This document shows positions 26,622-50,692 of a stretch of 64,000 nucleotides of DNA, piece after piece. This DNA is from Natrinema amylolyticum (GTDB lineage: Archaea > Halobacteriota > Halobacteria > Halobacteriales > Natrialbaceae), in assembly GCF_020515625.1 (NCBI RefSeq), contig NZ_JAIWPJ010000003.1:434001-498000 (forward strand), read 5' to 3'. The position numbers were made by a program, and so were the translations under genes. The notes under the pieces were generated by a model that worked only from the letters and a program-made list of their open reading frames with translations, searched no databases and was not told the origin of the DNA. The stretch's first letter is position 1. Every line of letters starts with the position of its first letter.

Positions 26622-26764
26622 CGCTCACGAATCAGCGTCAATAGAAAGCGCCCGAGGCGGGATTTGAACCCGCGTCACAACCGTGACAGGGTTGTATGAT
26701 GGGCCACTACACCACCCGGGCTCCCTGCAACTCTTCATTTCCCGGTGATGGTATTAAGGGTTTT
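26614..26764. repeat. Tandem duplication unit 1 (tRNA-Asp with flanks)
   Basis: About 151 bp nearly identical to 26935-27085 (offset 321 bp). It covers the whole tRNA-Asp gene, about 43 bp of promoter side and about 35 bp of 3' side. Only three or four differences are seen, all in the flanks. Confidence 0.9.
26649..26721 (-). tRNA. tRNA-Asp (GTC), copy 1
   Basis: A 73-nt tRNA on the minus strand. The acceptor stem GCCCGGG pairs with CTCGGGC (one G-U), the anticodon stem-loop is CAACC-CTGTCAC-GGTTG with anticodon GTC, the T arm contains GGTTCAAAT, and the discriminator is G73 as expected for tRNA-Asp. CCA is not encoded. No intron. A TATA-like CTTAATACC lies about 35-40 nt upstream and a T-rich CTTTTCTATT-like run (GCTTTCTATTG) follows the 3' end. 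Confidence 0.97.
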
Positions 26765-26934: not shown

Positions 26935-27085
26935 ATACTCATCGCTCACGAATCAGCGTCAACAGAAAGCGCCCGAGGCGGGATTTGAACCCGCGTCACA
27001 ACCGTGACAGGGTTGTATGATGGGCCACTACACCACCCGGGCTCCCTGCAACTCTCCATTTCCCGGTTATGGTATTAAGGCTTTT
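26935..27085. repeat. Tandem duplication unit 2 (tRNA-Asp with flanks)
   Basis: Second copy of the 151-bp unit. The 170 bp between the two units (26765-26934) have no gene and no similarity to the units. See the unit at 26614 for limits. Confidence 0.9.
26970..27042 (-). tRNA. tRNA-Asp (GTC), copy 2
   Basis: Identical over all 73 nt to the copy at 26649-26721, with the same promoter-like CTTAATACC upstream. Both copies should be functional. It is the upstream copy in the direction of transcription. Confidence 0.97.
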
Positions 27086-47393: not shown

Positions 47394-47975
47394 TCAGTTC
47401 AGGACGACGATCGCGACCCCCGAGAGGACGATCACGCCGAGGATGTCACAGACGTTCGTGACGACCGGAATCGTCGTGTCGTCGGGGTCCAGCCCCTGCG
47501 TGTAGGAGACGTAGGTCGCGGCGATACTGAGCACGATCGCGATCACGGCCAGGAGCATGCCGCTGACGACCGAGATGAGCATGAGATCGACCAGTGCCAT
47601 CGGTTCGGCGATGATCTGCCCGACGATCCAGGCGGCGACGCCCAGCGCCGAGAAGATCGTCGCCGCCAGTCCCATGATCGCCAATACGTTCGTCCACAGC
47701 ACCTCGTCTCGAGGATCGAACTCGAGCAAGCCCAGGTGGAGTCGCGTCGAGAGCCGCGAGGAGAGGATCGCGCCGAGGTTGCCGCCCATCCCGATCATCA
47801 CGGGAACGAGCACCAGCAGCGTCGGGTTGGAGAGGTAGGTCTCCTCGAGTTCCTCGAGGACGTAGCCTGATCCCATCTCGAGCATCGAGAGGACGAGGAG
47901 GATGGGAAACATCGTGGCGACGATGCTGCGGATCGACCAGGTGTCGATCGTCTCGTCCGAGCCCGCGGACGCCAT
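47394..47975 (-). CDS. MgtE/SLC41-type divalent-cation transporter, second half-protein (copy 1)
   Basis: A 193-residue membrane protein equal to one integral-membrane domain of the MgtE/SLC41 family (Mg2+ and other divalent cations), with five helices. Family residues are seen in LLVLVPVMIGMGGNLGAILSSRLSTRLHLG and the C-terminal TTIPVVTNVCDILGVIVL. It lacks the cytosolic N and CBS domains of bacterial MgtE. Its ATG overlaps the stop of the first half-protein by one base (TGATG), so the two are made together and likely form the SLC41-like two-domain pore. Confidence 0.88.
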   Translation of the reverse strand: MASAGSDETIDTWSIRSIVATMFPILLVLSMLEMGSGYVLEELEETYLSNPTLLVLVPVMIGMGGNLGAILSSRLSTRLHLGLLEFDPRDEVLWTNVLAIMGLAATIFSALGVAAWIVGQIIAEPMALVDLMLISVVSGMLLAVIAIVLSIAATYVSYTQGLDPDDTTIPVVTNVCDILGVIVLSGVAIVVLN

Positions 47976-48550
47976 CAGAAGATCCCTCCCACGACGGTGA
48001 TCGCAACGAAGAGGAAGACGACGCCGAAGATATCGCCGAGCGTGGTGACGATCGGGCCGATCAGGTTGTCGGGGTCGAGCCCGTACTCGTAGCTCGCGAA
48101 CACCAGCGCCAGCAGTCCGAAAATCAAGGTGACGGACGTGAGGACGCCGGAGACCAGCATGATACCGACGAGTTCGACGAGCCTGGCCGATTCCCGACCG
48201 AGAGCGTGCAGAATGCCCCACGAGAGGACCGCGATGACGATCGAAATCCCGATGCCGTTGATGAACGAGGCGGCGACAGCGTTGACCAGCCGCCGATCCC
48301 ACGAGAACTCGGGGTCGATCATCCCCTGGTGGAGTCCGCTCGAGATGCGCGCGCCCATCGCGCCGTAGACGTTCCCTCGAGTCGCCAGAAAGGCGGGGAG
48401 CAGGAGCAACAGTCCGGGAAATCGCTCGAATCCCTCGGTCATCCCCTCCGATCCGAGGACCGAGCCGGCGAAAATCCCGCCGGCGAGGCTGACGACGAGG
48501 ATCGGCAGTGACTCGCGGTAGATTCGCCACGCGTCTTGGCGAGCCTCCAT
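47975..48550 (-). CDS. MgtE/SLC41-type divalent-cation transporter, first half-protein (copy 1)
   Basis: A 191-residue integral-membrane half-transporter. Signature segments: PGLLLLLPAFLATRGNVYGAMGARISSGLHQG and LDPDNLIGPIVTTLGDIFGVVFLF; the conserved Asp near the end is a presumed ion-site residue. It pairs with the downstream half (1-nt overlap). Both halves are about 190 residues, so a two-gene version of the two-domain SLC41 protein is the simplest reading. Regulation may come from the PhoU/RCK_C protein encoded nearby. Confidence 0.88.
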   Translation of the reverse strand: MEARQDAWRIYRESLPILVVSLAGGIFAGSVLGSEGMTEGFERFPGLLLLLPAFLATRGNVYGAMGARISSGLHQGMIDPEFSWDRRLVNAVAASFINGIGISIVIAVLSWGILHALGRESARLVELVGIMLVSGVLTSVTLIFGLLALVFASYEYGLDPDNLIGPIVTTLGDIFGVVFLFVAITVVGGIF

Positions 48551-48687
48551 ACTGTCGCCTCACGGAATCCGGACATAAACCTACCGCGGGTCGAAAGCGA
48601 CTCGATCGCTCGAGGCCGTGGTGATCGGTACCACTAGTGACGAGCTGCTAACGGATCTCGGTCCGGGCCCGATGACGAACGCGACGC

Positions 48688-49122
48688 TCAGAGGGCGGCG
48701 GCGACGAGCCCCCACGCGAGGCCGATCGCAGCGAGCGAGCACGCGAGGTTAGCGACGGCGTTGCCGACCGCGAGCGTCCGGTCGCCGCGCTCGTACAGCC
48801 GGAGCGTCTCGACCGAAAACGAGGAAAACGTCGTGAAGGAGCCACAGATGCCCGTCCCGACGAGTCGGATCGTCGACTCGCCCGCACCCGCGAAGACCGC
48901 GAGGCCGAAAACGAAACTGCCGACGACGTTGACCGCGAACGTCGCCAGCGGGAACCGCTCGCTCGAGACCCGTTCGGAAACCCGCTGGGAGACCCAGTAT
49001 CGGAGGATTGCACCGATCGCCCCGCCGGTGCCGACGACGTGGGCCGGGTCGGGATCGACGGTGACGGCCGCTCGAGCGAGCAGCCGGCCGATACCGCTGC
49101 CCGCGAGGAGGAGCGTACTCAC
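48688..49122 (-). CDS. crcB: CrcB/Fluc fluoride channel subunit 2
   Basis: A 144-residue fluoride exporter subunit with four helices. Fluc landmarks are GTGGAIGAILRYW, NVVGSFVFG (Asn facing the pore) and GTGICGSFTTFSSFS (the phenylalanine box and Na-site break). The N-terminal 28 residues are an extra stretch before the first motif. It overlaps the other crcB by 4 nt (ATGA); Fluc works as an antiparallel dimer, so the pair should assemble as a heterodimer. It is under the fluoride riboswitch found upstream. Confidence 0.92.
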   Translation of the reverse strand: MSTLLLAGSGIGRLLARAAVTVDPDPAHVVGTGGAIGAILRYWVSQRVSERVSSERFPLATFAVNVVGSFVFGLAVFAGAGESTIRLVGTGICGSFTTFSSFSVETLRLYERGDRTLAVGNAVANLACSLAAIGLAWGLVAAAL

Positions 49123-49526
49123 GCGGTCTCACCACCGGACGGCCGCGGAGCACCGACCCGACGCGCGAGCGCTCGTCCGGCGAGCACGCCGACGAGGCCG
49201 AGTCCGTAGTTCGCGGCGACGATGCCGCCCAGCGCGAGCGGACTCGCGGCGAGTGCGGTCTGGAGCGCGAACGTGCTGTAGGTCGTCAACGAGGAGAGAA
49301 ACCCCGTCGTGAAGACGAGCCGGGCCCGCGAGGCCAGGTGGCCCGCGTAGTCGGCTTCGTAGACGAGGAAGGCGAGGACCGCGCTCCCGACGGCGTTGAC
49401 CAGAACGATCGACGGCACGTCCGGAAGCACTCCCATCGCGAAGAAACGGAGGTTCGACCCGGCGAAACCGCCGACGGCGATCAGTGCGAGCGTCTCGAGG
49501 CGAACGAGCGGATGTGTGTCTGCCAT
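49119..49526 (-). CDS. crcB: CrcB/Fluc fluoride channel subunit 1
   Basis: A 135-residue four-helix fluoride exporter subunit. Landmarks: VGGFAGSNLRFF, VLVNAVGSAVLAF and TTGFLSSLTTYSTFALQT. It is first in the two-gene crcB operon; the start codon ATG at 49526 stands 15 nt after the riboswitch 3' strand. No good Shine-Dalgarno sequence is visible in that 15-nt stretch. The partner gene overlaps its stop by 4 nt. Confidence 0.92.
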   Translation of the reverse strand: MADTHPLVRLETLALIAVGGFAGSNLRFFAMGVLPDVPSIVLVNAVGSAVLAFLVYEADYAGHLASRARLVFTTGFLSSLTTYSTFALQTALAASPLALGGIVAANYGLGLVGVLAGRALARRVGAPRPSGGETA

Positions 49527-49540
49527 GGCTGGGTGGTCAC

Positions 49541-49640
49541 GCAGGGACCGTCAGCCGGACGACGCACGATGCGTCTGCGCTCGATCCAGACGCGGTCGAC
49601 CGTCTCGTCCGGCGGTTGGGTTAGGCGGGCCCCATCGCCC
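49541..49640 (-). ncRNA. Fluoride riboswitch (crcB RNA)
   Basis: Read 5'-3' on the minus strand. It starts GGGCGATGGGGCCCGCC: P1 (GGCG/CGCC) with loop ATGGGGCC, holding the conserved GATG. Then TAACCCAACCGCC, a long P3 whose base GCCGGACGA pairs with TCGTCCGGC, and finally CTGACGGTCCCTGC. The loop GGGGCC can pair with GGTCCC to make the pseudoknot (one G-U). The linchpin A and U (A40, U48 by the Thermotoga numbering) are conserved; U41 is C and A49 is G. The inner P3 contains a further 7-bp stem (GCGTCTG/CAGACGC). Placement right before crcB strongly supports the call. Confidence 0.87.
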
Positions 49641-49768
49641 AGTCGTCTGCCCTCTCTCGCGGGCCCCATTGAGGATTTCGATGGTCGGGTCGACTCGACT
49701 CGACCGTCCGCGAGCGCCCGAACGAGGGAAGGAAAAGAGCCAAGGTTAGACTGCCTCTAAACCGATCC

Positions 49769-50692
49769 ATGTCCGAAGAGGCTGGCGCGGACGGCGGGCG
49801 ACGCGGGTTCGCGCGGGCGTCGTGGGCGAACGTCCTCGGTAACGTCGCCAAGATCGTCGTCGAGGGCGGTGCGGGGCTCGCGTTCGGCAGTGTCGCCCTG
49901 CTCGCCGACGCGGCCCACTCGCTGGCCGATCTCGTCGCCAGCGTCGTCGTCCTCGTCTGGGGCCGGAGCGCGTTCGACGAACCCGACGACACGCATCCCC
50001 ACGGCCACGACCGGATCGAGCCGTTGACGGCGCTGTTCGTCGGCGCCGTCATCGCGCTCCTGGGGCTCAACTTGCTCTACCGATCCGCTGAGGGGCTCGC
50101 GTACGGAACCGATATCGAGTTCAGCGTGTTGCTCCTCGCGGCGCTCGCGTTCTCGATCGCCGACATGTATCTGGTCTATCGCTACACCGTGGTGATCAAC
50201 GAGCGCCTGCAGTCGACCGCGTTGGCGGCGCTCGCGAAGGACTGTCTGAACGACATCTACACCTCGGTCGCCGCCATCGTCGGCGTTCTCGGCGTCTTCG
50301 TCGGCTATCCGATCCTCGATCCCGTCGCCGGCAGCCTCGTCAGTCTGCTGGTCGTCTATCAGGGCGTCGAGATCGGCAGGGAGAACGTCGATTACCTCAT
50401 CGGTGCCGCGCCCGGCCCCGAGAAGCGAGGGGAGATCACGACCGCCCTCCGTGGCCATCCGGCCGTCGCGGGCGTCCACGACCTGACCGTCTTCTACGAC
50501 GGCACCGTCCTCGAGGTCGAAGTCCACGTCGAAGTCGACGGCGACATGCCGTTCCGGGAGGCCCACGATATCGAGTCGGAACTGGTCGATCGCCTCCGGG
50601 GGCTCGAGGACGTCGGCGACGCGCACGTCCACCTCGACCCGTCGGGAATCGGCGAGTGGAAGGAGTCGTCCGACGAGTTCGAGCGTCGCTAA
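49769..50692 (+). CDS. Cation diffusion facilitator (CDF) metal exporter
   Basis: A 307-residue CDF with six helices and a C-terminal ferredoxin-like metal-binding domain (about 210-297, HPAVAGVHDLTVFYDG and GDAHVHLDP). Helix 2 has H50-x3-D54 (DAAHSLAD) and helix 5 has D158-x3-D162 (KDCLNDIYTS) in place of the His-x3-Asp of zinc exporters. An Asp-x3-Asp pair is seen in manganese/iron-type CDFs, so Mn2+ or Fe2+ is a better guess than Zn2+. It is divergent from the riboswitch-crcB operon. Its stop overlaps the end of the convergent histidine kinase gene. Confidence 0.88.
   Translation: MSEEAGADGGRRGFARASWANVLGNVAKIVVEGGAGLAFGSVALLADAAHSLADLVASVVVLVWGRSAFDEPDDTHPHGHDRIEPLTALFVGAVIALLGLNLLYRSAEGLAYGTDIEFSVLLLAALAFSIADMYLVYRYTVVINERLQSTALAALAKDCLNDIYTSVAAIVGVLGVFVGYPILDPVAGSLVSLLVVYQGVEIGRENVDYLIGAAPGPEKRGEITTALRGHPAVAGVHDLTVFYDGTVLEVEVHVEVDGDMPFREAHDIESELVDRLRGLEDVGDAHVHLDPSGIGEWKESSDEFERR

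Follow-up and report, generated by a model that had tools for sequence, protein, structure and literature searches.

The two tandem crcB genes of Natrinema amylolyticum are preceded by a leader that reads GGGCGATGGGGCCCGCCTAACCCAACCGCCGG...CCGGCTGACGGTCCCTGCGTGACCACCCAGCC-ATG on the minus strand. The question raised by this locus is whether the leader is a fluoride riboswitch and, if so, how it would control the genes behind it. We analysed the 64,000-nucleotide stretch that contains the locus (the window, to which all positions refer) together with related leaders from other archaeal genomes. A literature search returned no paper joining fluoride riboswitches with haloarchaea, which is no proof that none exists.

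The crcB leader belongs to the fluoride riboswitch class

The gene next to the leader, crcB1 (49119-49526, minus strand, 135 aa), encodes a protein of the fluoride channel family (PF02537, E 6e-14). It overlaps by 4 nt with crcB2 (48688-49122, minus strand, 144 aa; PF02537, E 2.1e-25), whose product resembles solved CrcB/Fluc channels (CrcB channel 5a40, E 2.8e-9). A fluoride-exporter or fluoride-stress gene downstream of the aptamer is a mark of the class, and here two tandem CrcB genes occupy this place. Directly 3' of crcB2 and in the same direction, the window contains frames for an MgtE-type divalent-cation transporter (47394-48563, minus strand; PF01769 twice).

A local scan of the window with RF01734 gave a match of 30.4 bits (E 2.9e-6) spanning 49535-49648 on the minus strand, below the gathering cutoff of 34 bits, which is a search threshold and not a structural trait of the class. 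At the gathering cutoff, a scan of the window reported two tRNAs and nothing else. These two tRNA genes (26649-26721 and 26970-27042, minus strand) are identical in sequence, 321 nt apart start to start and apparently the product of a duplication. When the 4.7-Mb genome was scanned with RF01734, the crcB leader was the top match and the runner-up had an E-value of 2.5. Three family relatives that share this core, with its C41, and have a P3 arm of 13-16 nt (L032, L033 and L034) scored 38.6, 36.5 and 35.4 bits. Since these short-armed leaders pass the cutoff, we attribute the low score in the window to the insertion in P3 and not to the changes in the core.

With G1 at 49640, A40 at 49551, C41 at 49550, U48 at 49543 and G49 at 49542 (Thermotoga petrophila numbering), the predicted aptamer from G1 to U48 occupies 49543-49640 on the minus strand. 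Direct reading recovered every motif listed in the original prediction: the GGCG/CGCC P1 stem, GATG, the GGGGCC/GGTCCC pseudoknot, the ACCG-stem-CTGA junction and a 9-bp run in P3. The distance from the 3' end to the ATG, previously given as 15 nt, came to 16 nt when counted between U48 and the ATG at 49526. The prediction was to be abandoned on a below-threshold score together with a lack of conserved pairing in relatives; the score indeed fell below the threshold, but the pairing is conserved. A chance match to RF01734 was rejected on the E-value of 2.9e-6, the rank of the leader as best match in the genome, the covariation of its pairing and its conservation in dozens of relatives. The covariance-model match, covariation and conservation, together with the gene context, mark the leader as a fluoride-riboswitch aptamer, as originally proposed; it is predicted to bind fluoride.

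The pairing of P1, P3 and the pseudoknot is conserved and covaries

P1 with its loop occupies 49624-49639 on the minus strand, with GGCG (49639-49636) facing CGCC (49627-49624), and two-sided changes were found in this stem across archaea. The pseudoknot joins GGGGCC (positions 8-13; 49628-49633, minus strand) to GGTCCC (positions 42-47; 49544-49549, minus strand) through six pairs, all of which were paired in 100% of cells and four of which showed two-sided changes. We scored the pairs of P1, of the base of P3 and of the six-pair pseudoknot in 36 distinct core variants from archaea: 99.8% of cells held standard pairs, although anchoring the trimmed sequences on core motifs tilts this result somewhat towards pairing. 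Two-sided changes occurred at six pairs in 52 cells, compared with 15.6 +/- 4.4 in shuffles, and control pairings obtained by sliding were at most 58% paired. The P1, P3 and six-pair pseudoknot of the RF01734 class are therefore both conserved and covarying.

The bases A6, U7, G8, U38, G39, A40 and U48 of the class are also in place. All 39 own-family loci retained A6, U7, U38, G39, A40 and U48, with a GC pair at 8-47 in each; the retention of A40 and U48, claimed from the window and read there directly, thus extends to the family.

C41 is linked to G43 and U44

The core departs from the class at C41 (49550, minus strand), which adjoins the linchpin base A40; the linchpin partner is U48. Position 41 was C in 38 of 39 own-family loci and U in 21 of 22 loci from other haloarchaeal families, a tally in which the GACGGTCCC string was not required. 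Across 87 distinct leaders, C41 occurred with G43 and U44 in 70, U41 with C44 in 16, and C41/A43/C44 in one. The linkage is better read from all 87 than from the 70 family-type leaders (70/70), which were picked by the GACGGTCCC string. Readable aptamers from more distant archaea had U41, and the lone C in that tally was a mis-anchored match. The recurrence of the U41C change suspected in the window was thus confirmed family-wide. The U41 of RF01734 is absent from the window and from 70/70 leaders of this type; the rest of the core being intact, U41 is a near-universal base and not a class-defining one, and the Natrialbaceae-type leader is, as judged from its sequence, a variant form within the known class.

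The second substitution singled out in the original prediction, A49G, did not hold as a motif change and was rejected, since other haloarchaea carry any of the four bases at position 49 (A4 T9 G5 C4).

Cytosine has no donor at N3. In the Bacillus cereus switch, the imino proton and 2'-OH of U38 (equivalent to U41) bond with A40 N7 and the C41 phosphate, and fluoride stabilises the contacts of this base (PMC8004769); renumbered through the linchpin (A37-U45 there, A40-U48 here), the contact sites correspond to positions 43 and 44. Replacement of U41 by A abolishes the fluoride response of the B. cereus switch (PMC11077080), and the stably docked state is lost in the U48A mutant (PMC8752731). 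Fluoride binding could therefore be weakened by C41, which argues against a working ON switch. We propose that the aptamer would still bind fluoride with C41, whose amino group perhaps stands in for the N3-H of U41 in the contact with positions 43/44.

The P3 arm is expanded throughout the family

The expanded P3 arm of the window (49554-49613, minus strand, 60 nt) consists of a 9-bp basal run, GCCGGACGA/TCGTCCGGC, and an apical hairpin formed by GCGTCTG (49593-49587) and CAGACGC (49577-49571), with a minimum free energy of -33.3 kcal/mol (z -2.4). In the first family set the arm measured 12-103 nt, compared with 11-17 nt elsewhere. Fifty-seven arms of at least 20 nt had a mean folding z of -2.0, and nearly all were closed at the base. 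The longest arm found (L089) reached 183 nt and contained TCGGCTGG-like repeats; Natrialba-type leaders (L089, L152 and L153) have arms of about 160-183 nt with such repeats in tandem. The long P3 first noticed in the window therefore recurs as expanded arms across the family. In known structures P3 is directed away from the fluoride site, so an insertion there is tolerable.

The leader is widespread in Natrialbaceae and decayed in some Natrinema copies

Matches to RF01734 at E 0.05 or better were found in 83 of 292 haloarchaeal genomes, 26 of which exceeded the cutoff; the weakest of these matches are due to chance, such as L064 and L065, which lie within coding sequence. Phylum-wide, 48 of 295 genomes exceeded the cutoff. 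The exact family-type 5' core was present in 55 of 125 Natrialbaceae genomes and 20 of 29 genera, a strict pattern that undercounts, as several genomes that lack it have a variant P1 or core. All 33 named records bearing the core were from Natrialbaceae (Natrinema, Natrialba, Natronorubrum, Halopiger and others), and crcB1 itself was present in 119 of the 125 genomes.

Decayed copies stand before an intact crcB1 in the genus of the window (L111, L112, L113, L123, L126 and L134). The 5' half is deleted in L112, the 3' core is lost in L113, and L123, L126 and L134 carry core substitutions. In L119 (G317), an 81-86 bp palindromic repeat is inserted at A40/C41 of the riboswitch, and a degraded copy is found in L115 (G320). 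These damaged copies indicate that the element is dispensable in places. The repeat is a near-perfect palindrome, TGATACGG...CCGTATGA, with a hairpin of -55 kcal/mol, and also occurs at L174 (G306). Of six Natrialbaceae genomes searched, five contained 10-74 matches each to the palindrome family, and the window's own genome contained none.

A probable promoter element lies upstream of the aptamer

A TATA-like box, read by eye, stands some 27-33 nt 5' of the aptamer in several other families, a distance that fits a transcription start at the aptamer 5' end. At this position, Natrialbaceae have CGCAAYNCTCAT, 8-14 nt and then GAGAA (read by eye); in the window, the probable promoter/operator region CGAAATCCTCA...GAGAGAGG occupies 49651-49680 on the minus strand. 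A search of six genomes found the exact CGCAAYNCTCAT/GAGAA element in two of them, at a single site each and in both cases at crcB; related forms stand upstream of crcB genes that have no riboswitch. This suggests a second, protein-based control of crcB, in which the element would be a possible operator of a crcB regulator.

Two other features were noted upstream. Eleven bases, ATGGGGCCCGC (49670-49660), repeat the 5' loop of the aptamer about 30 nt upstream of it; this partial duplicate was considered as a competing strand and set aside, as relatives do not conserve it. An inverted repeat, GGTTTAGA-GGCAG-TCTAACC (49746-49768), lies directly before a divergent cation-efflux gene at 49769, is similar in several relatives and looks like a metal-regulator operator.

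The 3' strand of P3 is complementary to the start codon region

Most spacers between U48 and the ATG measured 11-17 nt. A run of T4 or longer was absent from all 87 spacers, and an intrinsic terminator between aptamer and gene, as attenuation would call for, was therefore rejected. Masking of a Shine-Dalgarno sequence was rejected as well: there was no GGAGG, and four-letter strings resembling a Shine-Dalgarno were seen in 4 of 87 spacers.

The aptamer does contain a strand that could leave its own fold and form a helix with the start region instead. The proposed switching strand, GGCTG (49552-49556, minus strand), combines the 3' strand of the P3 base with U38 and G39, and its proposed partner, CAGCC (49527-49531, minus strand), lies directly before the ATG. 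Among eight aptamer segments, the 3' strand of P3 was far ahead in excess complementarity to the start region (-3.9 kcal/mol). CAGCY stood immediately 5' of the ATG in 49 of 70 family leaders and in 2 of 219 other genes, a background set of start contexts taken from 33 named 8-kb loci and the window, in which genes were called crudely as the longest ATG ORFs of at least 180 aa. Between -16 and +12, 40/70 leaders vs 3/219 other genes had a complement of at least 6 nt to the P3 3' strand, and 60/70 vs 28/219 had one of at least 5 nt, leader counts that overstate independence because the leaders are related. In most leaders the complement of this strand, GGCUGA, at the start codon measured 5-9 nt. 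Where the upstream CAGCC is lost (L049, L053, L093, L094 and L102), CAGCCG is found just within the reading frame. Leaders with a long spacer (L033, 95 nt; L170, 62 nt) still end in TCAGCC or CAGCC, and those with a shifted ATG (L063, L067 and L177) retain TCAGCC. The 95-nt spacer of L033 contains a long inverted repeat.

The complement is not uniform. In the window it amounts to 5 bp, which alone was not significant against shuffled spacers (p 0.27); four Natrialba-type leaders have a strict complement of 4 nt, and it is weak in haloarchaea outside Natrialbaceae. CAGCC also persists in Natrinema leaders with a decayed aptamer, and part of its conservation may reflect start context or inertia.

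We compared the energies of the two folds in a calculation that favours the anti state by construction, the aptamer state being more constrained, and that is indicative only. Without the pseudoknot, the anti state was favoured by a median of 8.8 kcal/mol, and the pseudoknot was worth about 9.8 kcal/mol; many leaders are therefore plausibly bistable in this model. The values for the window were -4.8 and -9.8 kcal/mol: its minimum-energy fold is the anti state, which the estimated pseudoknot energy suffices to reverse. The earlier guess of translational control is strengthened by the conserved complement at the start codon.

Proposed mechanism and alternative explanations

We consider it probable, from comparative sequence evidence, that the crcB1-crcB2 mRNA begins with a fluoride riboswitch and that fluoride switches its translation ON. 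In the absence of fluoride, the P3 base would open, and a helix of GGCUG(AC) and (GU)CAGCC, next to or slightly within the start codon, would block initiation; with fluoride, the docked aptamer would free the CAGCC start region.

The aptamer could instead be functional and act through fluoride-dependent early transcription termination or RNA stability, CAGCC being a habit of the start site. Many bacterial members attenuate transcription (PMC2864571) and some decayed leaders keep CAGCC, yet the spacers lack T-runs, CAGCY is rare before the ATG of other genes and it is absent from riboswitch-less crcB leaders (e.g. L141, L149 and L154-L158), so we regard this explanation as unlikely. It is rather improbable that translation is affected by another route, with no anti-P3 helix, in which the ribosome or a protein is acted on by the long P3 arm or by the docked aptamer itself, 11-17 nt before the AUG. 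Two observations speak against this: complementarity at the start is in excess for the P3 3' strand in particular, and the complement moves inside the reading frame in leaders that have lost the upstream copy. The tightly kept spacer length of most leaders is in its favour, as are the helix of just 5 bp in the window and the 4-nt complements of the Natrialba type.

Finally, the leader could be a decaying or fluoride-insensitive relic, with C41 and the expansion of P3 as signs of relaxed constraint and crcB controlled by the promoter element. Several Natrinema copies are clearly damaged, the U41A switch of B. cereus is dead, and crcB keeps the promoter element where the riboswitch is missing. 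However, the other core bases and all pseudoknot pairs of the window are intact, C41 is fixed together with G43/U44 and is not drifting, and intact leaders have a nearly invariant core while P3 and the spacer vary widely, which indicates selection. We judge a relic very unlikely and retain the translational ON switch as the preferred explanation.

Comparison with known systems and significance

The window shares P1, P3, the pseudoknot, GATG, A6/U38, A40/U48 and a downstream crcB with the RF01734 members of T. petrophila and B. cereus, and differs from them in C41 with G43/U44, the 60-nt P3 arm (up to 183 nt in the family) and a spacer without a terminator. Canonical aptamers of other haloarchaeal families (L009-L031) have the same locus type, tandem crcB genes and a short spacer with no terminator; unlike the window, they have U41, C44, a P3 arm of 11-17 nt and a weak or absent CAGCC complement. 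A paper of 2021 named one natural archaeal riboswitch as experimentally determined (PMC8241225). The fluoride-responsive riboswitch of Thermococcus kodakarensis, as that paper describes it (citing Speed et al. 2018), resembles the window in being archaeal, responsive to fluoride and presumed translational, and belongs to another lineage. Start-codon masking works in Haloferax: in the theophylline riboswitches of Haloferax volcanii, the ligand unmasks the start codon, as in the switch proposed here, although these are synthetic, include a Shine-Dalgarno and respond to another ligand (PMC8241225).

A bolder reading, which we put forward tentatively as somewhat short of an even chance, is that the fluoride pocket was redesigned in this lineage. 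C41 with G43/U44, possibly as a tuning to molar salt inside the cell, would take the place of a U41 contact regarded as essential in bacteria, and would be coupled to an archaeal translational switch that has no Shine-Dalgarno and masks the start codon with the 3' strand of P3. The long P3 shows why standard model cutoffs overlook most Natrialbaceae members. The family provides dozens of natural haloarchaeal variants with a specific proposed mechanism that would need no Shine-Dalgarno, and amounts to an evolutionary experiment on U41, a core base whose change to A is fatal for a bacterial switch.
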